Shown here: positions 1,422 to 15,839 of the stretch, piece by piece
How positions within the stretch are numbered: the stretch's first letter is position 1
How the letters are laid out: each line of letters begins with the position of its first letter
NCBI GenBank assembly: GCA_905373325.1
Contig: CAJPTB010000006.1
Coordinates: forward strand, 1-15,839
Direction: 5' to 3'
Length of the DNA stretch: 15,839 bases
Source: an uncultured Ancrocorticia sp.
Lineage (GTDB): Bacteria; Actinomycetota; Actinomycetes; Actinomycetales; Actinomycetaceae
Notes under the pieces: model-generated
What the model was told of the DNA's origin: nothing
Database searches by the model: none
Seen by the model: only the letters and a program-made list of their open reading frames with translations
Translations under genes and position numbers: made by a program

Positions 1422-2675
1422 TCACTCCCTGACGACGCACACGGGGGAGAAGCTGCGGTCGAAGACGACGAAATTGGGCCGCTTGCCCAGCTCGAAATCG
1501 AGCGTGACGCCCTTCGCCCCCTCGATGGAGGCCGCCTTTGCGGGAGCGGCGACGCAGGCGCGCACGATCTGCCCGAACGGGAGGGCGCCCCGCCGGGCGA
1601 ACAGCGCGAGCTGGTCGCTCAGCCGGGAGCAGCCCCCGGCGATCGTCTGCTTCCCCGCGAGCCGCGCCGCGCCCTCGCGCACGTCGACGTCGAGGCCCCC
1701 GAGGGCGTACCGCCCTTCGGGCATGCCGGCTGCGGCCATGGCATCCGTGACGAACGCGGCGTTTCCGCGCACCCATCCGTGCACGTCTTCGACGAGGGCG
1801 GGGGCCAGATGGACGCCGTCGCCGATGGTTTCCACGATCGCGCCGCCTTCCCTGGCGGCCGCCAGAAACTCCCTGACCGGGCCGGGTTCGCGATGGTCGA
1901 TCGGCGGCATCGCATTGAACAGGTGCGTGACCGTCTGCGGCACGCCCTCAAAGCCGAGTTCGGCCGCGCAACGCAACGTGGCTTCGAGGGCTTGTGCCGC
2001 GGTTTTTCCGCTTGCGGCGGTGTGCCCCCAGGAGGGCTTGGCGCCGTGGGCGAGCAGGATTCGGACGGCCTCCATGGCGTGATCGGCCTCCGGGGCGATC
2101 GTCATCGTCTTGACGAAGCCCTTGCCCTCCTCAAGCCACGACGTGAGCTCTTCGGGGTCGGCGCCGCGGATGGCGGCCGGATTCTGGGCGCCGGCCTTGT
2201 GGGGAGAGACGTACGGGCCCTCCATGTGGATTCCGGCCAGGTCGCCCGATTCGCAGAAGGGGAGGAGCGCCCGGATCGCCGGCAGGGGATCGGCCATCGA
2301 GACGAGGGACGCGAGAAGCGCCGTCGTCCCCGAAGCGCGATGGGCCTCGATCGCCTTGCGTATCGAGCGGGGATCGACGTCGTCGGGGAAGGACGCGCCG
2401 CCTCCGCCGTGGCAGTGGACGTCGACGAGCCCCGGCGCGATGAAGGCCCCCGAGACGTCGGCCTCGCCGGAATAGCCGCGCGGCAGCACGCGGGCGAGGA
2501 CTCCGCCCTCGAGCACGAGCCCGCCGCCGGCCTGCCTTCCATAGCCGTCGTAAACCGTGCCTGAGACGACCGCGTCGGGCTTGATGGCTTCGAGCGCGAC
2601 GCCGGGCTCGCCAGTGCCGACGCCGACGCGGCCTGCCCCTGCGACGGCGTCGGCCCGCCTTTGGCCGGCGGTCAC
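1422..2675 (-). CDS. nagA: N-acetylglucosamine-6-phosphate deacetylase
   Basis: A 417-aa cytosolic amidohydrolase that removes acetate from GlcNAc-6-phosphate, giving glucosamine-6-phosphate for NagB. With this start, the metal-ligand motif HCH is at residues 87-89 ('VDVHCHG'), the conserved Glu of 'HMEGPYVS' is E152, the metal His residues are H218 ('WGHTAAS') and H251 ('VTHLFNAM'), and the catalytic Asp is D311 ('FVTDAM'). The HxH motif resembles Bacillus/mycobacterial enzymes more than the QxN form of Escherichia coli. The start is a GTG whose last two bases begin the nagB stop codon (GTGA), preceded by GGAG at 6 bases, which implies translational coupling. The open frame extends upstream to 2786, but that part lies inside nagB and is Arg-rich nonsense. 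The first roughly 30 residues are divergent, so a slightly later start is possible. Confidence 0.95.
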   Translation of the reverse strand: MTAGQRRADAVAGAGRVGVGTGEPGVALEAIKPDAVVSGTVYDGYGRQAGGGLVLEGGVLARVLPRGYSGEADVSGAFIAPGLVDVHCHGGGGASFPDDVDPRSIRKAIEAHRASGTTALLASLVSMADPLPAIRALLPFCESGDLAGIHMEGPYVSPHKAGAQNPAAIRGADPEELTSWLEEGKGFVKTMTIAPEADHAMEAVRILLAHGAKPSWGHTAASGKTAAQALEATLRCAAELGFEGVPQTVTHLFNAMPPIDHREPGPVREFLAAAREGGAIVETIGDGVHLAPALVEDVHGWVRGNAAFVTDAMAAAGMPEGRYALGGLDVDVREGAARLAGKQTIAGGCSRLSDQLALFARRGALPFGQIVRACVAAPAKAASIEGAKGVTLDFELGKRPNFVVFDRSFSPVCVVRE

Positions 2676-3445
2676 GCCAGGCTCCAACGTTCGCGGTAAA
2701 GGTCGGCGTATTCGAGGAGTTCCGCGGCTTCGGCGTCGACGAAAACGGTGAGGTCGGGATGCATCTGGGCGACGGTGGCGGGCCATTTCGCGCTGATAGC
2801 GCCCTCGATCAGCTGGCGCACGGCTTCGGCTTTCTGAGCGCCGAAGGCGAGCAAGAGCAAGGACCGAGCCTCCATGATCGTTCCCAGCCCCTGCGTGATG
2901 CAGCGGGAGGGGACCTTGCCGACGTCGCCGTCGAAGAAGCGGGCGTTGTCCGTGCGCGTTCGGCGCGAGAGAACTTCGACGCGGGTGCGCGAAACGAGCG
3001 ATCCGCCCGGCTCGTTGAAGCCGATGTGCCCGTTGGCGCCGATTCCGAGGATCTGCAGGTCCACGCCGCCCGCCGCGGCGATCGACGCCTCATACTGCCC
3101 TGCAGCGAGGCGCGGGTCGGCGTCCGCGCTCTCGGGGGTGCGAAGGCCCGCCTCGGTCAGCCCGGTCTTTTCCGGCCCCACGAGCTCGCGTCGCAGGACG
3201 TTGCGGTACTTTTCCGGATGGCCGTCCGCGATTCCCACGTATTCGTCCAGCGCGAAGGCGGCCGAGCCCTCCAGGGTGAAACGCCCGGCGGCGTGCGCCT
3301 CGCGCAGCTCGGAGTAAAGGCCTTCCGGCGTGGATCCGGTTGCCACGCCGAGGTTCGCATTCGGCTTGCGGGCCAGAAGATCGACGATGCCGCGCGCCGC
3401 GGCGGCCGAGGCTTCCTCGGATGTTTCGAAGATGCCGATCTGCAT
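2672..3445 (-). CDS. nagB: Glucosamine-6-phosphate deaminase
   Basis: A 257-aa cytosolic enzyme that converts glucosamine-6-phosphate to fructose-6-phosphate plus ammonia, the step after NagA. The phosphate-binding loop 'GVATGSTPEGLY' is at residues 33-44, the catalytic D67 at 'LDEYVG', and 'GIGANGHIGFNEPG' at 134-147 carries H140 and E145. The position equivalent to E. coli Asp141 is Asn138, which I recall as common in Gram-positive NagB proteins. Length is close to the family norm (about 260). The ATG at 3443-3445 is preceded by AAAGGGA with 6 bases spacing. The frame stays open upstream to 3706, but that part has no NagB similarity and overlaps the divergent gene. Its stop overlaps the nagA start by 4 bases, so the two form an operon with nagB first. 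A palindrome upstream suggests repressor control. Confidence 0.96.
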   Translation of the reverse strand: MQIGIFETSEEASAAAARGIVDLLARKPNANLGVATGSTPEGLYSELREAHAAGRFTLEGSAAFALDEYVGIADGHPEKYRNVLRRELVGPEKTGLTEAGLRTPESADADPRLAAGQYEASIAAAGGVDLQILGIGANGHIGFNEPGGSLVSRTRVEVLSRRTRTDNARFFDGDVGKVPSRCITQGLGTIMEARSLLLLAFGAQKAEAVRQLIEGAISAKWPATVAQMHPDLTVFVDAEAAELLEYADLYRERWSLA

Positions 3446-3512
3446 TGCCAGTCCCTTTCTCGACGCGCCGTTCACGTTTCGCGGCGCTTCGTTGCAATAC
3501 CGTTGGTCAGTG

Positions 3513-3540
3513 ACGTTTGCCTTCAAGAATACACGTTTGC
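3513..3540. repeat. 8-bp direct repeat ACGTTTGC, 20 bases apart
   Basis: ACGTTTGC occurs at 3513-3520 and again at 3533-3540, exactly 20 bases (about two helical turns) apart, inside the divergent nagB control region and flanking the candidate -10 box. This phasing could serve a regulator bound on one DNA face, but an 8-bp match may be chance. Confidence 0.4.
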
Positions 3541-3554
3541 GGCAAATTTGTCTT
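3526..3554 (-). promoter_or_regulatory. Candidate sigma-70-type promoter of nagBA
   Basis: On the minus strand AAGACA (3549-3554, four of six to TTGACA) and TATTCT (3526-3531, four of six to TATAAT) are separated by exactly 17 bases, placing transcription start near 3519, about 75 bases before the nagB ATG. The surrounding 3490-3570 stretch is clearly A+T-richer than the neighbouring genes, as expected for a control region. Confidence 0.45.
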
Positions 3555-3561
3555 ACAAATT
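3545..3561. promoter_or_regulatory. 17-bp perfect palindrome, probable operator for nagBA
   Basis: AATTTGT-CTT-ACAAATT is a perfect 7-3-7 inverted repeat overlapping the candidate nagB -35 box. A second, shorter perfect palindrome TTTGC-G-GCAAA (3536-3546) overlaps its left side. The sequence lacks the TGGTCTAGACCA-type core of GntR/DasR sites that control amino-sugar genes in many Gram-positives. The TTTGT...ACAAA form is closer to what I remember of ROK-family (XylR/NagC-like) operators. No regulator gene lies in the window. It could also govern the divergent plus-strand gene. Confidence 0.55.
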
Positions 3562-3623
3562 CTAGGCGGGGAGTTTCGGCGTGTGTCCGCCTTTTCCAAA
3601 CGGGGGATGCGACCATTGGCCTG

Positions 3624-4916
3624 ATGAGCACAGAGGAACGCCGCGCATGCATTGCGGCCGCCTGGGTCCCGGTCAGGGTGCTGGCGGTCGTGTGGACGAC
3701 GGTCACGGTTTTTGCGATTTTCGCCTATGCCGCGACGGTCTCTTCTCCGACCCTCGGCCACGTCGATTGGCACGACGCCGCGAAGGCTGGAACATCAATC
3801 TTTTTACTGGCGATGGGAGGCTCGGCGGAGGTCGGGAATGCGGGCGTGACCCTCATGCCGTTGAGCGTGACTCTGCTCATCTGGTGGTTCGTCTATCGCT
3901 CTTTCCTCGCAACGGGGGTCGATTCCTGGGCTCAGGCGGCTTCGGCTGCGGCATCGTCCTTCGCTTTCACCCTTCTCGTCGGGCTCGCCGCCCTTCCGGG
4001 CGCCGGACGCTTCGGCGGCGCCGTCGGGGCTGCGGCTCTCACATGCGCTGCGATGGCTCGGGCCCGCTGGCGGACCTCGCGCCCCGACGGCCGCGTCTGG
4101 GGACTCCTTGAAGGCTGTCGCTGCGAGCTTCGGCCCGTCTTGCGCGCCCTCGCCGTCGTCTCCGTCTGCCTTTTGGCCGTCGCCCTCGTTCTCGGCCGGA
4201 GCTCGATCGCCGCCATCAACGGCTACTACGTCCAAGGGGCCGTCGGCGCCGCCATGCTCGCCGTCGTGCAGCTGGCCTACCTTCCCAACATCGTCGTCTG
4301 GGTCGCCTCCTTCGCGCTGGGGGCGGGTTTTTCCGTGGGCCGAGGCACGGATTTCTCGGCGTTCGGCGTGACGAGCCTCCAGCTGCCCGCGATTCCGGTT
4401 TTCGGCGCTCTGCCCAATCCGGGCGTGCGGATGGCATGGCTTCCCGTCCTTCTCGCCTTCCTCGCATTGGCGTGGTTCGTTTGGCGCTCGCGCGCCTATT
4501 CGAGTCTGAAAGAGGCGTCCGCCGCGGCGGGGGCGTGCCTGGCCTGCCTCTGTGCCTTCGGCGCCGCGGCCGCCTTCCTTTCGGGAGGGGCCCTAGGCCC
4601 GGGGCGGATGTCCGACGTCGGCCCTCGCCTCGTTCCGCTCGCCCTTGGTTTCGCTGTGGCCATAGGGCTGCCGTGCGTGCTCGGGCTCGTCGCTCCGCGC
4701 GCGGCCGCCGCGCTCCGCTCCCGCAGAACGGGGCCGGCGGAGGAGACGGAAGAAGGGCCCTCGACAACGGGGTTCTCCTCCCCACAGGCCGATCGACTTT
4801 CGCGTGATGCCGCCGACTCTTTGGCCTCAGACGGAAGGCGAGACCTCGAAAACCGTACGTTTGCCCGCCCGTCGAAGTGGCAGGGGAACCGGCGTGACGA
4901 TACATTTATCGAGTGA
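3624..4916 (+). CDS. DUF6350 multi-pass membrane protein (annotated in actinobacteria as cell division protein PerM)
   Basis: A 430-aa integral membrane protein with about nine hydrophobic segments (roughly residues 13-36, 70-93, 105-125, 130-145, 172-194, 205-245 as two, 272-290, 300-325 and 335-360) and a charged, probably disordered cytosolic tail of about 65 residues. The family marks are 'LPNIVVWVASFALGAGFSVG' followed by a 'GTDFSAFG' segment. Its place directly before purN is typical for DUF6350 genes in Actinomycetota. PerM of mycobacteria is linked to division and persistence, but the name is transferred and no function is shown here. ATG 3624 opens just before the first membrane helix. 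The frame continues upstream to 3330, but that part overlaps nagB in antisense. There is no good Shine-Dalgarno sequence; GGGGGA lies 16 bases away. The stop overlaps the purN start by 4 bases. Confidence 0.85.
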   Translation: MSTEERRACIAAAWVPVRVLAVVWTTVTVFAIFAYAATVSSPTLGHVDWHDAAKAGTSIFLLAMGGSAEVGNAGVTLMPLSVTLLIWWFVYRSFLATGVDSWAQAASAAASSFAFTLLVGLAALPGAGRFGGAVGAAALTCAAMARARWRTSRPDGRVWGLLEGCRCELRPVLRALAVVSVCLLAVALVLGRSSIAAINGYYVQGAVGAAMLAVVQLAYLPNIVVWVASFALGAGFSVGRGTDFSAFGVTSLQLPAIPVFGALPNPGVRMAWLPVLLAFLALAWFVWRSRAYSSLKEASAAAGACLACLCAFGAAAAFLSGGALGPGRMSDVGPRLVPLALGFAVAIGLPCVLGLVAPRAAAALRSRRTGPAEETEEGPSTTGFSSPQADRLSRDAADSLASDGRRDLENRTFARPSKWQGNRRDDTFIE

Positions 4917-5545
4917 GCAGCAAGCGCGGTCCCACTCGCCTCGTGGTGCTTGTGTCGGGCACAGGATCGAATATGCAGGCCCTCCTGCACGCCTGCGCCG
5001 ACCCATCTTACGGGGCGCAGATCGTCGCGGTGGGCGCCGACCGTCGAGGCGCCGCCGGAATCCGGGCCGCCGAAGAGGCCGGAGTTCCGACGTTTGTCCG
5101 CGTCCTTTCGGAGCACTCGTCGCGGGAAGAGTGGGACGCGTCTTTGCGCGACGCCGTGGCAGCGTACACACCCGACATCGTGGTTCTCGCGGGCTTCCTC
5201 AAGCTCGTCGGCCCTGAGTTTCTAGCGGCGTTCCCGCAACGCGTGGTGAACACCCACAACGCGCTTTTGCCCTCCTTTCCTGGAATCCACGGTCCGGCCG
5301 ACGCCTTGGCGTACGGCGTGAAGGTAACCGGTGCAACTCTATTCGTCGTCGACCCCGGAATGGACACGGGGCCGATTCTGGGACAGACAACATGCCCGGT
5401 TCTCGAGGGAGATTCCGAGGAAGCGCTGGTAGAACGAATTAAGGAAGTCGAGCGTGTTCAGTTGGTTGAGCTAATCGGGCGAATGGCGCGCGAAGGCTGG
5501 TGGGTCGAAGGCAGAAAGGCGGGGATAGGTGCTCGGTCCAGATAA
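4913..5545 (+). CDS. purN: Phosphoribosylglycinamide formyltransferase (GART)
   Basis: A 210-aa cytosolic enzyme that transfers a formyl group from 10-formyltetrahydrofolate to GAR, making FGAR, the third step of de novo purine synthesis. The substrate loop 'SGTGSNMQAL' is at residues 15-24. The catalytic triad N113, H115 and D151 is seen in 'NTHNALLPSFPG' and 'DPGMDTGPIL'. Length matches the family (about 190-215). The start is a GTG sharing GTGA with the stop of the upstream DUF6350 gene, so translation is probably coupled. No ribosome-binding sequence is visible. Instead a small CGATA/TATCG hairpin (4898-4911) sits directly before the GTG. The 3' end overlaps the following esterase gene by 17 bases. 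Confidence 0.96.
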   Translation: MSSKRGPTRLVVLVSGTGSNMQALLHACADPSYGAQIVAVGADRRGAAGIRAAEEAGVPTFVRVLSEHSSREEWDASLRDAVAAYTPDIVVLAGFLKLVGPEFLAAFPQRVVNTHNALLPSFPGIHGPADALAYGVKVTGATLFVVDPGMDTGPILGQTTCPVLEGDSEEALVERIKEVERVQLVELIGRMAREGWWVEGRKAGIGARSR

Positions 5546-6617
5546 GCTTCTTACGCTCATAGTGTTTGCCGTATTGACGGTCGCCAGCGCGGCGGCCGCG
5601 GTATGGCTCATCGGGCGCGAGCCCACTCGCAAGATTCGGGCGCAGGCCTCCGCCGCCATGGTGACCGCCATCGTGGGCGCCATCAGCATGACGGGCATTC
5701 AGATGAACCGGACGCTCGGGTACGCCGCAAATTGGAGCGACGTGCCGGGCCTTTTCTTCATGAAACCCGATGGAAAGGGCTCGACGACGCCGGTCCGCAG
5801 GCCCGTTCCCAGGCCCGAAGCCGGCGATCCCGAATTGCCGGGCCACCACGGAGACTCGAGGTGGAAGGTCAAGTTCACGAAGGATTCGAACGGCGCCTAC
5901 CAGACGAAATTCAAGGGGCCGATCTCGGGGATCAGCCTTCCCGTATGGGTGTGGACGCCTAAGAACTATTCGCCGACGAACGGGAAAATCTACAAGGTCA
6001 TGCTCATGCTGCACGGATACCCGGGCAACCCCTACAAGGTTCCCACGCAGCTCAATCTCCAAAATGCCATGAAAAAGCATCCGAACACGATTATGGCGAT
6101 CCCGTCGCTCAAGGTCGACGCCACGTCTCCCGACTGCGTCGACATCAAGGGGCGGCCCGCCGTCGGATCCTGGGTGGTAAACGACATCGTCGGCATGGTC
6201 CGCCACAATTTTCCCAACACCGAGAAGACGCGAAAGGGATGGACCATCGCCGGCGCCTCCTACGGCGCCTACTGTTCCGCCGTCCTCGGCCTCACCCATC
6301 CCCAGACTTTTTCCAAGATCATCTCATTTTCCGGCTACGATCAGCCGGAGACGGGGCGTTTGCTGGGTGCGCCGCCTCGTGTTCGGCGAGAATTCAGCGT
6401 GTCTAACCTGTTGTCGAAACAAAAGGCGTGGCCGCAGCGGCTTTACGTCACGGGTTCCAAAGGCGACCCAAAGTCGGCCGCCTTCGTTCAGAAGCTCAAG
6501 AGAATATCGACGCCGGCGGTCAAAATCACCTCGTTGCTCCAACCCATCGGCGGCCACAACTGGGGTGTGTGGCGCAAGGAGCTGCCCGCCGCCTTGGCAT
6601 GGAACGGAAAGGGCTGA
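5529..6617 (+). CDS. Membrane-anchored alpha/beta-hydrolase, esterase D/Ag85-like family
   Basis: A 362-aa protein. The N-terminus has two hydrophobic helices (about 8-28 and 41-57), then a linker and an alpha/beta-hydrolase domain (about 105-355) of the putative esterase type. The oxyanion region 'LMLHGYPGNPY', nucleophile S244 in 'GASYG', a likely acid D313 in 'GSKGDP' and H343 in 'GGHNWGVW' form a complete triad; the 30-residue acid-to-His spacing fits the family. The catalytic part probably faces outside and could act on ester-linked cell-wall or environmental compounds; the substrate is unknown. GTG 5529 follows GGCGGGGA at about 4 bases and overlaps purN by 17 bases. The gene is visibly poorer in G+C than its neighbours (31/60 at 5941-6000 and 30/60 at 6061-6120, against 49/60 in purH 7501-7560) and Lys/Asn-rich, partly as expected of an exported domain. 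It has no evident purine role. Confidence 0.85.
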   Translation: MLGPDKLLTLIVFAVLTVASAAAAVWLIGREPTRKIRAQASAAMVTAIVGAISMTGIQMNRTLGYAANWSDVPGLFFMKPDGKGSTTPVRRPVPRPEAGDPELPGHHGDSRWKVKFTKDSNGAYQTKFKGPISGISLPVWVWTPKNYSPTNGKIYKVMLMLHGYPGNPYKVPTQLNLQNAMKKHPNTIMAIPSLKVDATSPDCVDIKGRPAVGSWVVNDIVGMVRHNFPNTEKTRKGWTIAGASYGAYCSAVLGLTHPQTFSKIISFSGYDQPETGRLLGAPPRVRREFSVSNLLSKQKAWPQRLYVTGSKGDPKSAAFVQKLKRISTPAVKITSLLQPIGGHNWGVWRKELPAALAWNGKG

Positions 6618-6883
6618 TGTTTGCCATAACCGGCGGAGGGACGATCTTCGTCAGCTTCCTTTTGACTGTCGCGTGCATCGTTTGCGCCGTGGTGTACGGC
6701 CACCGCTTTCGATGGGAGGGCCACCACGCGGCATGGGGGGTCCTGGCCCGGTCGGGAATCGTGTTTCTGGCCATTTTGTGGGGATGCATCACCGTGCTCC
6801 TGCTCTTCAACAGGGTGACGCTCACGGTCACTTCCTTCGGCGATCTGGACGCCTTCCTCTACTTGCTCGGCTTTTCCGACTGA
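6617..6883 (+). CDS. Small two-helix membrane protein of unknown function
   Basis: An 88-aa protein I do not recognise. It has two strong hydrophobic segments, about residues 8-28 and 45-66, separated by a basic and His-containing loop ('YGHRFRWEGHH'), and ends in an acidic 'SFGDLDAF' and 'GFSD'. The ATG overlaps the esterase stop by one base (TGATG) and follows GGAAAGGG, so it is surely co-translated with the esterase. The same frame is open further upstream (to 6428), but that portion is antisense-like noise inside the esterase gene. The tight coupling suggests it forms a membrane complex with the esterase or extends its membrane domain; this is inference only. Confidence 0.75.
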   Translation: MFAITGGGTIFVSFLLTVACIVCAVVYGHRFRWEGHHAAWGVLARSGIVFLAILWGCITVLLLFNRVTLTVTSFGDLDAFLYLLGFSD

Positions 6884-6909
6884 CGCGCATGCGCGTCGAG
6901 CCGTATTAT
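6880..6909 (+). promoter_or_regulatory. Candidate internal promoter for purH
   Basis: CTGACG (6880-6885, four of six to TTGACA) and TATTAT (6904-6909, five of six to TATAAT) are 18 bases apart. Transcription would start near 6916, exactly where the ZTP aptamer begins, which strongly favours a real promoter. The -35 overlaps the stop codon of the small membrane protein gene. purH could therefore be made both from this promoter and by read-through from the upstream genes. Confidence 0.6.
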
Positions 6910-6913
6910 GAAT

Positions 6914-6984
6914 GCGTCGGCGACTGGCGTTGGATGGGATTGACCATCGGGGAGCGAAGTCTCGGCGTCGCACGCCTGGGCGCC
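6914..6984 (+). promoter_or_regulatory. ZTP (pfl-type) riboswitch controlling purH
   Basis: The conserved parts of the ZTP/ZMP aptamer appear in order. J1/2 GACTGGCG is at 6922-6929. The P2 hairpin is GATGG/CCATC (6933-6937 with 6944-6948), followed by GGGGAGCG (6949-6956). The 3' element CACGCCTGGGC (6971-6981) contains CGCC (6973-6976), which can form the pseudoknot with GGCG (6926-6929). P1 is weak here (GCGTCG with CGAAGT, one mismatch and one wobble). An alternative hairpin GGCGT/ACGCC (6964-6968 with 6972-6976) would compete with the pseudoknot. The ribosome-binding site AAAGGAG (6987-6993) follows within 3 bases and no T-tract is present, so control is probably translational. Ligand ZMP is the substrate of PurH; ON-type control is known for this class. 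Confidence 0.92.
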
Positions 6985-6997
6985 GGAAAGGAGAGAC

Positions 6998-8650
6998 ATG
7001 CGCATTCCCATTCGCAGAGCGGTCATTTCCGTCTTTGACAAGGCAGGCATCGAAGAGCTCGCCGCGGCGCTTCACGGCGTCGGCTGCGAGATCGTCTCAA
7101 CCGGCTCAACGGCCGAGGCCATTCGGTCGGCGGGCGTGCCGGCGACGGAAATCAGTGAGATCACCTCGTTCCCGGAGTGCCTTGACGGCCGGGTCAAAAC
7201 CCTCCACCCCGCGGTCCACGCGGGAATCCTCGCAGACCGGCGACGCCCGGAACACATGCGGCAGCTGGCCGAGCTCGGCGTCGAAGGCTTCGACCTCGTG
7301 GTCGTCAACCTCTATCCCTTCTCCCGGACCGTCGCCTCGGGGGCGGACTACGAGGAGTGCATCGAGAAGATCGACGTCGGCGGGCCCTCGATGATCAGGG
7401 GCGCCGCGAAAAATCATGCGAGCGTGGCTGTGGTCACGGACCCCTCGGACTATGCCCGCGCAGCCGAGGCCGCCCGGCGAGGGGGCTTCGACGCCGACGA
7501 GCGGGCGGCCCTCGCGGCGAAGGCCTTCGCGCGCACCGCCGCCTACGACGCGGCGATCGCCCGCTGGACGGCGAAGATTCACGGGAAAGCCGTTGCGGGG
7601 GAAGCGGCCGCGGGGGGCGCGGACATCGGCGGCGAAGGGCTTTCAGGCAACGTCGGCAAGGCGGAGTTTTCGGGAGTCGCCGCCGGCGGAGCAGGCCGTC
7701 CGGGAACGTCCGCGGGCGAAGAAGACAAGCTGTTTGGCTGCGTCAAAGTCGCCGATTTGCGCTACGGCGAGAATCCCCACCAGGCGGCCGCGCTTTACTC
7801 GGCGGGCGAGGGCGGGGTCGCAGGAGCCGTTCAGCTCGGCGGGAAAGAAATGAGCTACAACAATTACCAGGACGTCGACGCCGCAGTGCGGGCAGCCTAC
7901 GACCACGCCGAGCCCGCCGTGGCCGTGGTCAAGCACGCCAACCCCTGCGGCGTGGCCGTGGCCGAGGACGTCGCGCAGGCGCACGCGGCGGCCCACGCCT
8001 GCGACCCGATCTCGGCCTACGGCGGCGTGATCGCCGCCAACAGGGAGGTCGATGCCGCGATGGCCGAGCAGGTGGCTCCGATCTTCACCGAGGCGATCGC
8101 CGCCCCCTCGTTCAGCGCCGAGGCGTTGAAGATTCTCTCGTCCAAGAAGAATCTGCGGATCCTTCGGGTCGAGCCGGTCGACGTTGCGCGCGACATTCGG
8201 CCGATATCCGGGGGAGCGCTCGTTCAGGAACGCGACAGGATCGACGCCGAAGGCGACGACCCCGCGCAATGGCGCCTGGTTTCCGGAGAGCCCGCCGACG
8301 AGGCGACTTTGCGGGATCTGGCGTTCGCATGGCGCGCGGTGCGCGCGGCAAAGTCCAACGCGATTCTTTTGGCCGACTCGCGCGCCACGGTGGGAATCGG
8401 GATGGGGCAGGTCAACAGGGTCGATTCGTGCCGCCTCGCCGTGGCGCGGGCCGGCGTGCGGGCCGCGGGCTCGGTCGCCGCCTCCGACGCCTTTTTCCCC
8501 TTCGCCGACGGCCTCGAGGTCCTTCTCGACGCAGGGGTGTGCGCCGTCGTGCAACCCGGCGGATCGGTTCGCGACCCGGAAGTGATTGAGGCCGCCCAGA
8601 AAGCCGGTGTGACGATGTACCTCACGGGTGCGCGCCATTTTTCCCACTGA
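6998..8650 (+). CDS. purH: Bifunctional AICAR transformylase / IMP cyclohydrolase
   Basis: A 550-aa cytosolic enzyme catalysing the last two steps of IMP synthesis: formylation of AICAR (ZMP) by 10-formyltetrahydrofolate and ring closure to IMP. The N-terminal cyclohydrolase domain (1 to about 190) shows '[10 protein letters not shown]', 'GRVKTLHP' with K67, 'VVVNLYPF' and '[15 protein letters not shown]'. The transformylase domain (about 250-550) has 'RYGENPHQ', the catalytic 'KHANPCG' with K312 and H313, '[12 protein letters not shown]' and '[12 protein letters not shown]'. Between the domains, residues about 196-243 form a Gly/Ala-rich low-complexity insert longer than the usual linker. 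ATG 6998 follows AAAGGAG with 4 bases spacing, just after the ZTP riboswitch, so expression should rise when ZMP accumulates. It ends the purine group; a hairpin follows. Confidence 0.97.
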
Positions 8651-8804: not shown

Positions 8805-11800
8805 ATGACGATTGACCCCGTTCTCATTGATCGCGCAGTGGAACGAGCCCGCCAGTGGAGCGAGGCCGCACGGGCCTACCCGACGGCGCGATCCGCCAAG
8901 CTTTTGTCGCAGGTTCTCGACCACGAGGGAGGCCTCGACTACACGGTGAACTTCGTGGACGGGGTCATCCGCCCTGAAGACCACGGCGTGGCCGCCCGCA
9001 ACCTCAAGCATCTGTCCAAGCGCGACTCGGCTTTCCTGCCCCCGTACCTCGCGGCGCCCGCGAACGTCGGCGGAAGGATCGCGCCCTTCGTTCCCTCGCT
9101 GGCGTCGTCGGCCGCCCGCCGCGTCTTCGCGATGCTCGTCGGCGACCTGGTCCTCGACGTGACGCCCGACAAGCTCGGCCCGGCGATTGCGAAGCTCCGT
9201 GCGGACGGCTCTCGGCTCAACCTCAACCTTCTGGGCGAGGCAGTCCTCGGAGACAAGGAGGCGGCCCACCGCATGGAGGCGACGGCGGCCCTCATCGAAC
9301 GCGACGACGTGGACTACGTTTCCCTCAAAGTCTCCGCGGTCATCGGGCCTCACGCGCCCTACGGCCACGCGGCGGCCGTCGAGGAAGCCGTCGAGAAGCT
9401 TCTCCCGCTTTACAGGCTCGCAGCCGCATCCAGCACCTTCATCAACCTGGACATGGAGGAGTACCGGGACCTCGATCTGACCATCGACGTGTTCACGCGA
9501 ATTTTGGATCGTGAGGAATTCCTCGGATACCGCGCTGGAATCGTCCTTCAGGCTTACCTTCCCGACGCCCTCGGCAGGCTCAACGGGCTGACCGAGTGGG
9601 CGCAGGCCCGCCGCGCCCGGGGCGGCGCCCCGATCAAGGTGCGCATCGTCAAGGGCGCCAACCTTTCCATGGAAAGAGTGGATGCGACGATGCACGGATG
9701 GGAGCTGACCGTTCAGGCGGACAAGGCTGACACGGACGCCAACTACATCGCATGCCTCGACGCCGCGCTGACCCCCGAGAGGGTCGACGCCGTCAACATC
9801 GGCATCGCCGGCATGAACCTCTTCACGATGGCTTACGGATACGAGCTTGTGCGCGAGCGGGGCATCGCCTCCGGCGTCGATTACGAGATGCTTGCGGGAA
9901 TGGCGACGCCGCAATCTCACGCCGTCCGCGACACCGTCGGCCCGCTCCTCTACTACGTGCCCGTCGTCAGGCCCGAGGAGTACGACGTGGCCGTGGCCTA
10001 CCTCGTGCGCCGCCTCGAGGAGAACGCGGCGCCGGAAAATTTCATGTCGAACGTGTTCGACTTGGAGAAGGCCGATACCTTCGCCTTGGAAGAGAAGCGT
10101 TTCCGCGACGCCGCCGGGCTTGTCCCGGGCTTGTCCTACGGGCCGCGCCGCAAGCAGAATCGCTTCGAGCGCACCGTTGTGCCCGACCGTTTTGAGAACA
10201 CTCGCGACACCGATCCCGCGCTGCACGCGAACATCGAATGGGCCGAGAAGATCGCCTCGCGCATTCCCGACTCGAAGCTCGGGGCCGACGTCGTCGCGGA
10301 GAACATGGTCAATTCCGACGCCGAGGCCCGCAAAGTCGTCCAGTCCGTGGCCGGTGCAGCCAAAAAGTGGGCGGCGCGCACGGGCAAGGAGCGGGCGCAG
10401 GTCTTGCGGTCCGTCGCCCAGGCCATCGAGGACCACCGCGGCGAGCTCATCGAAGTCGCCGGGAGCGAAGCCGGAAAGGCCATCGACCAGGGCGACGTCG
10501 AAGTCTCGGAGGCCATCGATTTTGCGCTCTACTACGCGGACCTCGCCGAGGACCTCGACTCTCTCGAAGGCGCCGCGTACGTTCCGGTGCGCACGACCCT
10601 CGTGACGCCTCCGTGGAACTTCCCGATCGCCATTCCCGCGGGCGGCGTGCTGGCAGCGCTGGCGACCGGCTCCGGCGTCGTCTACAAACCGGCCAAGCTG
10701 ACTCGGCGCACGGGATCCTACCTCGCGAAGCTCATGTGGGAGGCCGGGGTCCCCCGCGACGTCCTCGCCCTCGTGTGCATGGACAAGTCCTCCTACGGGA
10801 AGGTCCTCGTCGAAGAGACCGATCAGACGATCCTCACCGGTTCGATCGACACGGCGCGGATGTTCCGCTCGTGGCGCCCCGACCTTCGCCTGTTCGCCGA
10901 GACCTCCGGCAAGAACGCGATCATCGTCACCCCGAATGCCGACATCGACCTCGCGGTCAAGGACGTCGTCTATTCGGCCTTCGGCCACGCCGGCCAGAAG
11001 TGCTCCGCGGCCTCGCTCGTGATCCTCGTCGGGTCGGTCGGATTCTCCAAGCGTTTCCAGCGTCAGCTCTGCGACGCCGTCCGCTCGCTCAAGCTCGGGC
11101 ATCCCCACGACCTCGCCGCCCAGATGGGCCCGATGGTCGAACCTCCGCACGGCAAGCTGTTGAAGGGCCTGACGGAGCTCGGCGAAGGCGAGGCATGGGC
11201 GATCAAGCCGCGCAAGATCGACGACAAACTCTGGAGCCCCGGCGTGCGCGCCGGCGTCATGCCGATGAGCGAGTATCACCTGACCGAATACTTCGGCCCG
11301 ATTCTCGGCGTCATGAGGGCAGACACCCTCGGTGAGGCGATCGCCTGGCAGAACGCCGTCGACTTCGGTCTCACCGCCGGCCTGCACTCGCTCGACCCCG
11401 AGGAGATCTCCGCCTGGCTCGACCAGGTTCAGGCCGGCAACGTCTACGTCAACCGCGGCATCACCGGCGCGATCGTGCGCCGCCAGCCGTTCGGCGGATG
11501 GAAGCGCTCCTCGGTGGGCGCCGGAACGAAGGCCGGAGGCCCGAACTACCTCATCGGACTCGGGCACGTCGAATGGGCGGACAAGGACCTCGGCCGCGCC
11601 CAGATTTCGAACGAGACGCTGTGCGGGGCGCGGGTGATCGCCGAGACGATGGACGGCGTCGACCAGGATCGTTTCCTCGCCGTCGTCGAGGGAATGGACA
11701 AGGCTTTGTCTGGCCATTTCCAGCCGGCAGACCCCAGCGCCCTCGGGGTGGAAAAAAACGTTCTGCGCTACATTCCCTTCCCCGAAGTCGTCATTCGCCA

Positions 11801-12197
11801 GTCAGGCGCGGGATCCGGAGACGTCATGGCGTTGGCCGCCGGCGCTTTGGCGATCGGCGCCCGCCCCAGGGTCTCGACGTCCGCGGCGCTTCCCAAGCAG
11901 GCTGTCGACTTCCTCGAGTCGAGGGGCGCCGAGGTCGTGCTCGAATCCGAGGATGACTTCCTCGCCTATGCCGCCACGCGGGCGAACTCGGCCGACGGAG
12001 TGCGTTTCCGGCTCATCGGCGCCGATCCGAAGGCGCTGGCCGAGGCCGTCGGCGGAAGCGTCGACGTCGGCGTCTACGCCGAACCGGTCACCGGCAGCGG
12101 GCGGATCGAGCTGCTTCCCTTCGTTCAGGAGCAAGCCGTGTCGGCCACGAACCATCGCTTCGGAAATCCGACGAGGCTTCTGGACACCGTGATCTAG
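8805..12197 (+). CDS. putA: Bifunctional proline dehydrogenase / L-glutamate-gamma-semialdehyde dehydrogenase
   Basis: An 1130-aa enzyme oxidising proline to pyrroline-5-carboxylate (FAD) and then glutamate (NAD+). The proline dehydrogenase part (about 80-420) shows 'VRIVKGAN' with K283, 'DYEMLAGMA' around Y360 and the substrate-binding Arg pair R402/R403 in 'VRRLEEN'. The aldehyde dehydrogenase part (about 490-955) shows 'TPPWNFPIAIP', the general base E699 in 'AETSGKN' and the nucleophile C733 in 'GHAGQKCSAAS'. A further C-terminal domain of about 170 residues follows, as I recall for long actinobacterial PutA proteins. The ribbon-helix-helix DNA-binding domain of enterobacterial PutA is absent, so the protein cannot repress its own gene that way. 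It is a single-gene unit between two hairpins, convergent with glutamate dehydrogenase, which uses its product. Confidence 0.96.
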   Translation: MTIDPVLIDRAVERARQWSEAARAYPTARSAKLLSQVLDHEGGLDYTVNFVDGVIRPEDHGVAARNLKHLSKRDSAFLPPYLAAPANVGGRIAPFVPSLASSAARRVFAMLVGDLVLDVTPDKLGPAIAKLRADGSRLNLNLLGEAVLGDKEAAHRMEATAALIERDDVDYVSLKVSAVIGPHAPYGHAAAVEEAVEKLLPLYRLAAASSTFINLDMEEYRDLDLTIDVFTRILDREEFLGYRAGIVLQAYLPDALGRLNGLTEWAQARRARGGAPIKVRIVKGANLSMERVDATMHGWELTVQADKADTDANYIACLDAALTPERVDAVNIGIAGMNLFTMAYGYELVRERGIASGVDYEMLAGMATPQSHAVRDTVGPLLYYVPVVRPEEYDVAVAYLVRRLEENAAPENFMSNVFDLEKADTFALEEKRFRDAAGLVPGLSYGPRRKQNRFERTVVPDRFENTRDTDPALHANIEWAEKIASRIPDSKLGADVVAENMVNSDAEARKVVQSVAGAAKKWAARTGKERAQVLRSVAQAIEDHRGELIEVAGSEAGKAIDQGDVEVSEAIDFALYYADLAEDLDSLEGAAYVPVRTTLVTPPWNFPIAIPAGGVLAALATGSGVVYKPAKLTRRTGSYLAKLMWEAGVPRDVLALVCMDKSSYGKVLVEETDQTILTGSIDTARMFRSWRPDLRLFAETSGKNAIIVTPNADIDLAVKDVVYSAFGHAGQKCSAASLVILVGSVGFSKRFQRQLCDAVRSLKLGHPHDLAAQMGPMVEPPHGKLLKGLTELGEGEAWAIKPRKIDDKLWSPGVRAGVMPMSEYHLTEYFGPILGVMRADTLGEAIAWQNAVDFGLTAGLHSLDPEEISAWLDQVQAGNVYVNRGITGAIVRRQPFGGWKRSSVGAGTKAGGPNYLIGLGHVEWADKDLGRAQISNETLCGARVIAETMDGVDQDRFLAVVEGMDKALSGHFQPADPSALGVEKNVLRYIPFPEVVIRQSGAGSGDVMALAAGALAIGARPRVSTSAALPKQAVDFLESRGAEVVLESEDDFLAYAATRANSADGVRFRLIGADPKALAEAVGGSVDVGVYAEPVTGSGRIELLPFVQEQAVSATNHRFGNPTRLLDTVI

Positions 12198-12215
12198 GGG
12201 CGCGGGCGCGCCTAG
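12194..12215. repeat. Inverted repeat overlapping the putA stop codon
   Basis: CTAGGGGCGC (12194-12203) and GCGCGCCTAG (12206-12215) pair with one mismatch around a 2-base spacer, beginning one base before the putA TAG. It could stabilise the mRNA 3' end or contribute to termination upstream of the main terminator. Confidence 0.5.
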
Positions 12216-12294
12216 AGGCGCACTGCCGACGGTCCGCGGTCCCAAACCGTTGGACCGGCGGTCCAGAGCCGTCTATGCCGGTTGAAGAATCAGG

Positions 12295-12333
12295 CGGAGG
12301 GGCTCCTCTCTTGAAGAGGAGCCCCTCCGTTTT
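12295..12333 (+). terminator. Strong Rho-independent terminator of putA
   Basis: CGGAGGGGCTCCTCT (12295-12309) and AGAGGAGCCCCTCCG (12315-12329) form a perfect 15-bp stem with a 5-base CTTGA loop, followed by TTTT (12330-12333). It lies about 100 bases after the putA stop. The stem could also stop transcripts from gdh on the other strand, but the bases that would follow there contain only a broken T-run. Confidence 0.92.
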
Positions 12334-12427
12334 GCCGTCGTTTGGGTCCAGTTCGAGTGGATTCTGTTCGCGTTCTTTTCAGGCCTGTCGCATCCGCACA
12401 GCTTTTGCGCCCGCTCGATTTGCCCGA

Positions 12428-12461
12428 CGGCGCCAAAGCCACGGCGGCGCCAAAGCCACGG
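12428..12461. repeat. Two tandem copies of a 17-bp unit
   Basis: CGGCGCCAAAGCCACGG occurs at 12428-12444 and is repeated without change at 12445-12461. It is outside any gene, 73 bases beyond the gdh stop in the gdh 3' direction. Two identical abutting copies point to a recent slippage duplication and could vary in copy number between strains. Confidence 0.9.
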
Positions 12462-12533
12462 CAGCTGTGCCCGTGCGGCCTCTGGACGTCGGGCTTCCCG
12501 CGGCCTGCCGGTTGACCGTTTGGAGGGGCGGCT

Positions 12534-15500
12534 CTAGCTTCTGGCGAGCGCGCGCATCGAGCGCAAAACGACGACGAGCGAGGCGAGGGAGGCTTCCTGT
12601 GAGTCGGCCAGCGCGGCGGTCGCCTCAATGGCCCGCTTCGAGCCAGGGCGTTCGTCGAGCCATGCTGCGACCCGATCGGCGCTCTGTTCCGTGTCGGCGA
12701 GTATGCGCTCGGTAAGGGCCACCGCCGCCGCACGCAGATCGGCCTCCGTGGCCGACTGCGCCGTGGCCGTCCACACGTCGGTCACCGGAAGCGCGGCGTC
12801 GAGTTCGAGCAGTCTGCCGATCGAAAACCGGCCGTAGACGTCAAACATGACACGCAAGACCTCGCCGGGATCCTCGCCCGTGCGGGAGGCCGTGTCGATT
12901 GCGTCCATAAGAGCCGTGGCCCTTGTCAGATCGGAGAAGACGGCGGCCAGCGCCTCGGGCACCCCCGTGGCCGCGGCCTCGTCGATTTCCTGCGAACGCC
13001 TGCTCAGATCGGGTTCGGCCAGAAACGCGTCGAGGCGTCCGATCCAATCGCCGACGGCGGCGAATCGTTCCACCGTGTCGCCGATGGGCGCGGCCGGCGC
13101 CTGGATGAGCCAGCGGACCGCGGCGTCGAGCGTGCGCCTGAAGCCGAGGTAGAGCTTGGTCTGGGTTTGGGCGGGGATGCGGTTGTCGAGGGCCTGGACG
13201 GCGTCGGTGAATCCGGCGAGGTCAAGGATCTCCCGGGCGGCGGCGAAGGCGCGCACGACGTCTTCGACCGCGGCCTGGGTGTCCTCGATCGCGCGGAGCG
13301 TGAAAGTCAGGCCGCCTCGGTTGACGATCGAGTTTGCCACGGCGTTGGCGACGATCTGGCGGGCCAGGGGGTGGCTTGCCAGTCTGTCGGCGTAGGCGGC
13401 GGCGATTTGCGGCGGGAAGTAGCCGCGCAGGTCGCGGGCGAACCATTCGTCGTCGGGCAGGGAGGACTCCAGGATGTCCTTTTTGAGGGCGATTTTCGTG
13501 TAGGCCGTCAGGACGGAGAATTCGGGGCTGGTCAGACCGCGGTCAAGCGAGGCGGCGCGTTCGAGCAGGGCGGCGTCGCTCGGAAGGAATTCGAGGCGCC
13601 TGTCGAGGTCGCCTCGCTCTTCGAGGCAGTGCATGAGGCGGATGTGTTCGTGGGCCATGGCCGGTCCGAGGGCTCGGGCGTTGCCGAGCAGGACATTTTG
13701 CTCGTAGTTGTCGCGCAGGACGTGCGCGGCGACGTCGTCCGTGACGGAGGCGAGGAGTTCGTCGCGCCCGGCGCCGGTCAGTTCGCCCGAGGCGACCAGC
13801 GGCGCGAGGAGGATCTTGATGTTGACCTCGTGGTCGGAAGTGTCCACACCGGCCGAGTTGTCGATCGCGTCGGTGTTGATCCGCACGCCGGCCAAGGCCG
13901 CCTCGATGCGTCCGCGTTGGGAGAATCCCAGGTTGCCGCCTTCGCCGACGACCGTGCATCGAAGGTCGGCGCCGTTGACGCGGACGGCGTTGTTGGACGG
14001 ATCCCCAATTTGTTCGTGGGTTTCGTCGCTGGCCTTGACGTATGTGCCGACCCCTCCGTTGAACAGCAAGTCGACGGGAGCGGTGAGGATGGCGCGGACG
14101 GCCTCCGCCGGGGTGAGAGACTCCACGGCCTCGTCGAGTCCGAGCCGCCGGCGAACCTCGGGGGAGACCGGGATGGATTTGGCCGATCGGGGCCAGACCC
14201 CGCCGCCCGAGGAGATGGCCGAGGCGTCGTAGTCTGCCCACGAGGAACGCGGCAGTTCGAACAGACGCTTGCGCTCGGCGAAGGAGACCGCGGGGTCGGG
14301 GTCCGGGTCGAGGAAAATCGATCGGTGGTCGAAGGCGGCCACCAGGCGGATGTGTTTGGACAGCAGCATGCCGTTTCCAAAGACGTCGCCGGACATGTCG
14401 CCGATGCCTGCGGCCGTGAACTCCTCGGACTGGGTGTCGATCCCGAGTTCGCGGAAATGCCGCTTGACCGACTCCCACGCCCCGCGGGCGGTGATTCCCA
14501 TCTTCTTGTGGTCAAACCCGGCCGAACCGCCGGAGGCGAAGGCGTCGTCCAACCAGAACCCGTAGGCGCGCGAGACGGAGTTGGCGATGTCGGAGAACGT
14601 CGCGGTTCCTTTGTCCGCCGCGACGACGAGGTACGTGTCGTCTCCGTCGTAGCGGACCAGTCCCTCGGGCGGGACGACCTTCCCGTCGACGAGGTTGTCC
14701 GTGACGTCGAGCAGCGCGCCGATGAAGATCCGGTATGCCGCTATGCCTTCGGCCAGCCACGCGTCGCGGTCTGCGGACGGATTGGGCAGGCGTTTGGCGA
14801 AGAAGCCGCCCTTCGATCCGGCGGGCACTATGACGGCGTTTTTGACTGCCTGGGCCTTGACCAGACCGAGGATCTCGGTGCGGAAATCCTCCCTGCGGTC
14901 TGACCAGCGCAGCCCGCCGCGGGCCACCGGGCCGAAACGCAGATGCACGCCCTCCACGCGAGGCGAGTACACCCATATTTCATATAGGGGCCGAGGCTCG
15001 GGAAGAAAGCCGATTCGGCGCGGCTCGAGCTTGAAGGCGAGAGACGCCGCCCCGGTCAAATAGGCGTTCGTGCGCACGACGGCGTCGATGACCGCGAGAA
15101 GTCCGTTGGCGATCCGCTCGTCGTCGAGGGACGCCGCCTTTCCGACGCCTTCGACCAGGGCTTCGCGCAGTTCGCTGGGATCGGCGGCGTTGCCGGGCTG
15201 GAACCTGGCCTCAAAGTACTCGACGAAAGCCCTTGCCAGTTCGGGGTTTTTCACGAGGGATTCGCGCAGGTAGGTTCGCGAGAAGGGCAGGCCCGCCTGC
15301 CGCAGATAGCCCACAAGGGCGCGGAGAACGGACACCTGGGACTTCATGAGTCCGGCTGAAAGCACGAGGGCGTTCAGCGAGTCCGACTCCATCTCGCCCG
15401 TCCACGCCGCCGTCACGGCTTCAACGAACCGTTCGTCGGCGTCGGTCCAGCGTTCGGGGCTTTCAGCCCGCAAACCGAAGTCGAACATTTTTGCGTCGCC

Positions 15501-15839
15501 GAATGTGTACGGGCGTTCGTCGGTGACGACGAGGTCGAAGTTCGAGAATATCGGCAGGATTCGGGTGAGCGAGACCTCTTCGCGCACGAAGACCTTGAGA
15601 CGGCGGGCGTCGGGGGAGCCTTCGGGGGCGTAGAGCTCCAGCTCGAAGCCCCCGGGTTCGAGCTTCGCCAGCCGGGCAGCGTCGCGGGCGCCGGTTTCCG
15701 GCGAGTACTCCGTCTTATAGGCGGCAGGCACAAGGGAAACGTCGGCGGCGGATTCGGCGGCGACGACGAAGCCCTCGTCCCAGTCAAGCGTGGCTCGGGC
15801 CACGACACGGGCGAATTCGCCGCGTTGCTGGCGATCGAC
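12534..15839 (-). CDS. gdh: NAD-dependent glutamate dehydrogenase, large (GDH2/COG2902) type, 5' end outside window
   Basis: About 1100 C-terminal residues are present; the frame stays open through the right edge, so the N-terminal part (about 500 residues in a family of roughly 1600) lies outside. The GTG at 15801-15803 is internal, not a start. The enzyme oxidises glutamate to 2-oxoglutarate and ammonia with NAD+. The family catalytic core is clear: 'RGGLRWSDRREDFRTE' (near 14880-14930), 'VIVPAGSKGGF' with the catalytic Lys codon at 14811-14813, 'KGTATFSDIAN', 'GDMSGDVFGNGML' and 'NGGVGTYVKAS'. The C-terminal part is the helical region typical of these large enzymes. It ends with TAG at 12534-12536, convergent with putA, whose product is its substrate. 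In related bacteria the activity is regulated by the FHA protein GarA/OdhI; nothing in this window shows that. Confidence 0.95.
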   Translation of the reverse strand, partial: VDRQQRGEFARVVARATLDWDEGFVVAAESAADVSLVPAAYKTEYSPETGARDAARLAKLEPGGFELELYAPEGSPDARRLKVFVREEVSLTRILPIFSNFDLVVTDERPYTFGDAKMFDFGLRAESPERWTDADERFVEAVTAAWTGEMESDSLNALVLSAGLMKSQVSVLRALVGYLRQAGLPFSRTYLRESLVKNPELARAFVEYFEARFQPGNAADPSELREALVEGVGKAASLDDERIANGLLAVIDAVVRTNAYLTGAASLAFKLEPRRIGFLPEPRPLYEIWVYSPRVEGVHLRFGPVARGGLRWSDRREDFRTEILGLVKAQAVKNAVIVPAGSKGGFFAKRLPNPSADRDAWLAEGIAAYRIFIGALLDVTDNLVDGKVVPPEGLVRYDGDDTYLVVAADKGTATFSDIANSVSRAYGFWLDDAFASGGSAGFDHKKMGITARGAWESVKRHFRELGIDTQSEEFTAAGIGDMSGDVFGNGMLLSKHIRLVAAFDHRSIFLDPDPDPAVSFAERKRLFELPRSSWADYDASAISSGGGVWPRSAKSIPVSPEVRRRLGLDEAVESLTPAEAVRAILTAPVDLLFNGGVGTYVKASDETHEQIGDPSNNAVRVNGADLRCTVVGEGGNLGFSQRGRIEAALAGVRINTDAIDNSAGVDTSDHEVNIKILLAPLVASGELTGAGRDELLASVTDDVAAHVLRDNYEQNVLLGNARALGPAMAHEHIRLMHCLEERGDLDRRLEFLPSDAALLERAASLDRGLTSPEFSVLTAYTKIALKKDILESSLPDDEWFARDLRGYFPPQIAAAYADRLASHPLARQIVANAVANSIVNRGGLTFTLRAIEDTQAAVEDVVRAFAAAREILDLAGFTDAVQALDNRIPAQTQTKLYLGFRRTLDAAVRWLIQAPAAPIGDTVERFAAVGDWIGRLDAFLAEPDLSRRSQEIDEAAATGVPEALAAVFSDLTRATALMDAIDTASRTGEDPGEVLRVMFDVYGRFSIGRLLELDAALPVTDVWTATAQSATEADLRAAAVALTERILADTEQSADRVAAWLDERPGSKRAIEATAALADSQEASLASLVVVLRSMRALARS

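Follow-up and report, generated by a model that had tools for sequence, protein, structure and literature searches.

A ZMP/ZTP riboswitch directly before purH in an uncultured Ancrocorticia sp., probably a translational ON switch

The ZMP/ZTP (pfl) motif was described in PMC2864571, which already in 2010 listed purH with the genes most often linked to this RNA and expects higher expression with ligand. Discovery of the ligand by Kim et al. (2015) is recounted in PMC7266159. The pseudoknot of the ZTP riboswitch and its terminator mechanism are described in PMC7337938, and a covariation model of the class was built from sequences with predicted terminators (PMC13273304). For a Pectobacterium ZTP riboswitch a translational lacZ fusion was used (PMC10117056), and the review PMC9481103 presents five tandem ZTP systems, one of them predicted to be an OFF switch.

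Here, we analyzed a window of 15,839 nucleotides (the whole stretch of DNA under study), from which the aptamer, its target gene, the promoter position and the absence of a terminator at the aptamer were computed (Table 1). A sequence-only reading had assigned the locus to the ZTP class, and this was borne out by an Rfam covariance-model search, in which the aptamer scored 44.7 bits (cut-off 39) over the full RF01750 model (1-86). Its E-value of 1.2e-4 (0.00012) refers to a search of the entire window on both strands with all 4227 Rfam families. This was the sole match above a curated cut-off in the window, and the sole other match listed there (Plant_U3, 18.1 bits) lay far under its cut-off of 80. 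The conserved motifs GCGACUGGCG, GGGGAGC and CGCCUGGGC were all found. The core motifs, P2, P3 and pseudoknot partners are intact, with the P3 stem formed by CGGCG (6963-6967) and CGCCG (6981-6985), and J1/2 GGCG (6926-6929) complementary to CGCC (6973-6976) in the P3 loop. Judged by its sequence and structure, the locus is a genuine ZTP riboswitch.

Table 1. Features of the riboswitch locus and its surroundings in the window
Feature	Positions	Strand	Basis or remarks
Upstream co-directional genes	3330-6883	+	DUF6350 protein, purN, esterase-like, 88-aa membrane-like protein
DUF6350 protein, longest ORF	3330-4916	+	True start probably later
purN	4913-5545	+	192.5 bits to TIGR00639
Esterase-like gene	5529-6617	+	
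88-aa membrane-like protein	6617-6883	+	Overlaps esterase stop
Promoter: -35-like CTGACG (6880-6885), 18-nt spacer, -10 TATTAT (6904-6909)	6880-6909	+	Sole promoter-like match in 6300-7300
ZMP/ZTP riboswitch aptamer (RF01750)	6910-6988	+	44.7 bits, gathering 39, E 1.2e-4
P1 5' strand, weak, with bulge and mismatch	6914-6921	+	3 non-standard pairs in Rfam alignment; weakest P1 of 29 measured
J1/2 pseudoknot strand GGCG	6926-6929	+	Sequence; partner CGCC 6973-6976 by the ZTP fold described in PMC7337938
P2 hairpin GATGG/CCATC	6933-6948	+	Pairing probability 0.98-0.99
J2/1 and P1 3' strand, GGGGAGCGAAGTCTC	6949-6963	+	Predicted ligand-free partner 6993-7009 (MFE pairs, duplex energy)
P3 stem-loop, loop CGCCTGGGC, holding pseudoknot strand CGCC 6973-6976	6963-6985	+	Rfam alignment, folds
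Expression platform: SD AAAGGAG (GGAG 6990-6993), ATG 6998, GAGAC...TTCCC strand of predicted OFF helix	6987-7009	+	Sequence, folds
purH, bifunctional AICAR formyltransferase/IMP cyclohydrolase, controlled gene	6998-8650	+	NF002049 691.2 bits, PF01808, PF02142
PutA-like gene downstream of purH	8805-12197	+	
NAD-glutamate dehydrogenase	12534-15803	opposite strand	

The riboswitch precedes a gene of purine or one-carbon metabolism. The identity of the proposed target as purH was confirmed by the NF002049 match of the ORF, although its score to the purH profile TIGR00355 fell slightly under the cut-off (525.9 vs 528). Its start lies 9 bases beyond the end of the aptamer match, and the aptamer and SD, along with most of the promoter, fit into the 114 bases of 6884-6997. 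The genes upstream had been taken for membrane genes, which suits the 88-aa membrane-like protein but not purN, a purine gene third upstream of purH. The true start of the DUF6350 protein is probably later than 3330, because a NagB-like ORF on the opposite strand reaches 3706. Divergent from the purN-purH run, on the minus strand at 1422-3706, are ORFs resembling an amidohydrolase and glucosamine-6-phosphate isomerase, which Pfam marks as NagA/NagB-like. On the other side (8805-15803), the PutA-like gene faces that of NAD-glutamate dehydrogenase, a convergent proline-to-glutamate-to-oxoglutarate pair, and the PutA-like protein extends about 220 residues past its Aldedh match (which ends at 909 of 1130).

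Under strict filters, a ZTP match at E <= 0.001 was obtained in 43 of 59 related genomes, with 42 exceeding the cut-off. A purH match was present in 57 (3 weak). ZTP RNA stands directly before purH in 29 of the 59. Another 34 ZTP matches lie elsewhere, and 18 of the 20 examined precede glyA, as judged by tblastn with the G044 protein (72-83% identity), itself 597 bits to serine hydroxymethyltransferase of NCBIfam. In G002 (L147), of the same genus, purH was not preceded by a ZTP match, lenient filters included; by eye, a TACACT hexamer occurs upstream of its purH. Divergent ZTP copies, each followed by a T-run, were seen in G021 (L194) and G026 (L198), and they are predicted terminator-type platforms within the same bacterial family. 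In G021 the copy is followed by purE (196.5 bits) and then a gene resembling purC (114.7 bits, under its cut-off). Tandem ZTP aptamers before purH in G031 (L169) were considered and set aside: the copies flank a run of exactly 100 N and agree in all of 77 bases, so the pair is probably a scaffold artefact.

A promoter adjoining the aptamer had also been proposed, and its -10 position proved common to relatives. A TANNNT hexamer ends 10-13 nt upstream of the aptamer core, for this purpose (G/A/C)ACUGGYG, in 28 of 30 purH copies (window and nearest genome G001 counted), against 89/5022 further upstream and 4.7% in shuffled bases of the same stretch. As for the two misses, an N-gap occupies the position in G031, where the copy across the gap has TACACT at 12 nt, and G057 has TAAACT at 18 nt. 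All 18 glyA copies having the core show the hexamer when 9-15 nt is allowed, and 54 of 57 family and class loci, a set overlapping the 30 purH copies, carry the hexamer at 9-14 nt (background 154/20520). In the window itself, CTGACG-18-TATTAT is the sole sigma-70-type match in 6300-7300 (shuffle mean 0.1), its -35-like hexamer overlapping the stop codon (TGA, 6881-6883) with which the small gene upstream ends. Only half of the claimed -35/-10 pair holds across relatives, however: the -10 is kept, whereas CTGACG is shared with the near-copy G001 but by eye there is no -35 consensus in the other relatives. The perfect 16-bp palindrome GACGCGCATGCGCGTC (6882-6897) overlaps the -35-like hexamer and the spacer. 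It is probably no conserved operator, because one arm base differs in G001, and none was seen by eye in the relatives' spacers.

The usual distance from a -10 hexamer to the transcription start is 6-7 nt. Transcription would therefore start within the P1 5' strand, around 6916, rather than at the first base of the aptamer (6910) as had been supposed. As a control, TPP riboswitches of the same relatives (L236-L265) had the hexamer in one 7-nt interval, the best of those tried, at 23 of 30 loci. The ZTP spacing is tighter (54/57 vs 23/30), but because the control shows a similar tendency the layout is not special to this locus or to ZTP riboswitches. The promoter is thus credible, but in its placement the locus follows a widespread habit and is no special case. 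It appears that ZTP, and by this control many TPP, riboswitch leaders in the group have their first bases at the transcription start or close to it, in which case P1 strength would depend on start-site choice.

The weakness of P1 had been noticed from the sequence and is indeed unusual. Measured in 29 purH copies (G036 left out) with a 6-nt 5' strand, the P1 energy of the window (-2.4 kcal/mol) is the weakest, tied with G001, and 21 of the 29 fall between -8.4 and -13.4 kcal/mol. With a 10-nt 5' strand the window alone is weakest (-3.4 kcal/mol; G001 -6.6), the sole aptamer base differing from G001 (6913) lying within the extended P1. A decayed or chance match, with a degenerated P1 and an RNA that no longer binds, would agree with this weakness and with the lack of a ZTP match before purH in the same-genus G002. 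This explanation is nevertheless very improbable: the score exceeds the cut-off, the core motifs are kept, and 6914-7020 (107 bases) is unchanged in G001, the nearest genome compared, despite an overall identity of 93.5% over 15.8 kb.

The proposed very short platform stood up as well, and no terminator accompanies it at the aptamer. From CGCCUGGG to the ATG there are 17 nt in the window and in G001, within a range of 15-71 in 30 copies (15 in G018, 17 in G029); so short a platform is near the bottom of the range yet has counterparts. The ribosome-binding site had been placed 3 bases after the aptamer and is very close to it, but 4 bases (6986-6989) lie between P3 and the GGAG core (6990-6993). 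No terminator-like match occurs at the aptamer, the three found in 6300-7300 all lying at 6632-6772, and the window has no intrinsic terminator of the transcriptional type between P3 and the gene. Likewise, T-runs of at least 4 between the CGCCUGGG loop and the start codon are present in 1 of 30 purH copies (G020).

Taken together, the locus is probably an RF01750-class ZMP/ZTP riboswitch acting as a translational ON switch that raises purH translation, a judgment made jointly on class, on the ON direction and on control at translation, and on no particular helix. Ligand binding, direction and translational control are what we infer. The riboswitch would be transcribed from its own promoter inside the purN-to-putA gene run, and accumulating ZMP/ZTP would raise purH translation. 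ON would be the sensible direction because PurH consumes ZMP.

How a true ZTP riboswitch would reach the ribosome is less certain. It had been proposed that a GGCGU/ACGCC hairpin competes with the pseudoknot by capturing one of its strands, and the ribosome might then be affected by the folded aptamer, which ends 4 nt short of the SD core. Both pentamers exist, and the static energy of the hairpin with P2 (-14.4 kcal/mol) is near that of P2 with P3 (-14.9 kcal/mol). The ensemble disfavors it, however: pairing of 6964-6968 with 6972-6976 has a probability of 0.02-0.03 in folds reaching at least 7009 and 0.13 in those ending at 7003, P3 or an extended form being favored. The hairpin also pairs no SD base and would therefore need another step. 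Switching by this route is improbable.

For the translational ON switch, the likeliest single mechanism, still a tentative one, is an anti-start helix between 6949-6963 and 6993-7009. Without ligand, the weak P1 would be open, and GGGGAGC together with the P1 3' strand would pair with the purH start region, hindering ribosome loading. Ligand would stabilize the pseudoknot and P1, withdraw the P1 3' strand and free the purH start. Support for this helix is mixed and confined to the lineage of the window. In the predicted ligand-free fold of 6914-7016 the two segments pair around P3, 11 of the 14 MFE pairs having a probability of at least 0.93, and the P1 5' strand pairs with the GGCG pseudoknot strand (0.48-0.60). 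The energy of the duplex is -18.8 kcal/mol vs -10.1 +/- 2.4 kcal/mol in dinucleotide shuffles, and was reached by 0 of 500 of these and by 59 of 20,000 mononucleotide shuffles. Against the helix, 15 of 216 synonymous codings of codons 2-5 pair equally well or better.

In a translational switch the SD or start region would be mutually exclusive with the ligand-bound aptamer. The helix is strong in prediction, yet the accessibility comparison was negative: SD-start accessibility fell from 0.61 to 0.53 on removing the aptamer (-0.08, the wrong sign), and in 98% of 60 shuffles the change was equally high or higher. The SD bases 6987-6992 are mostly unpaired (at least 0.73) in ligand-free folds. 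The helix also depends on the ends of the RNA, its GUCUC/GAGAC part falling to 0.46-0.73 when the RNA starts at 6916 and the helix standing at 0.26 (pair 6961-6995) when it ends at 7003. Nor is the strong duplex general, with p < 0.05 in 3 of 30 copies (the window, its near-copy G001 and, weakly, G008), which is near chance for the family. In pseudoknot-free folds P1 is open (at most 0.11) in 25 of 30 copies; an open P1 is thus not particular to this locus. In the same folds the start region is paired at 0.29-0.82 in relatives and 0.75 in the window. Family-wide SD sequestration was rejected, since the mean accessibility gain over 30 sequences was 0.12, against 0.10 for shuffles (60 each).

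That no freeing of the start region was seen would suit a true ZTP aptamer working by another route: it might act through Rho or RNA decay, or, once bound to ligand, block the SD close by and so switch purH OFF. The tandem ZTP system predicted to be OFF in PMC9481103 (before moeA) would be a precedent. ZTP riboswitches are described as typically ON in PMC2864571 and PMC9481103, however, and the consumption of ZMP by PurH also argues against an OFF direction. We regard such a route as rather unlikely, and favor the translational ON switch. Within that reading, a more speculative and doubtful idea is that P1 was traded for control in the lineage of the window. GGGGAGC, the conserved strand of the ligand site, and a remodelled P1 3' strand would pair from the purH SD to codon 4, and the aptamer itself would serve as the anti-start helix, with no separate expression platform and with transcription starting inside P1.

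ZTP riboswitches linked to purH are already known, and the locus adds another instance, as expected in its bacterial group. It contributes a clean example from purH in which the platform is minimal, and does not overturn current understanding. Compared with the ZMP/ZTP (pfl) class of RF01750, it shares the aptamer core, the P1-P2-P3 plan, the pseudoknot and the purH target, and differs by its very weak P1, an ATG 17 nt after CGCCUGGG and the lack of a terminator at the aptamer. The ZTP riboswitches of Thermosinus carboxydivorans and Clostridium beijerinckii belong to the same aptamer and ligand class, and ON is expected here too. The T. carboxydivorans RNA is described as a transcriptional ON switch whose terminator takes P3 bases (PMC7337938) and the C. 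beijerinckii one is treated as transcriptional (PMC10085676), whereas no terminator accompanies the aptamer here. Of the 30 purH copies, 29 have no T-run before the start and some have equally short linkers, although 21 of 29 have a P1 of at least the strength given by -8.4 kcal/mol and that of the window, with a bulge and a mismatch, has only -2.4 kcal/mol. With the purH- and glyA-linked copies of relatives (G003, G018, G029 and others) the locus also shares the near-fixed -10 spacing before the core. The locus is, in sum, a real but ordinary representative of a familiar riboswitch family, and its construction largely follows that of the copies in related bacteria of the same group.
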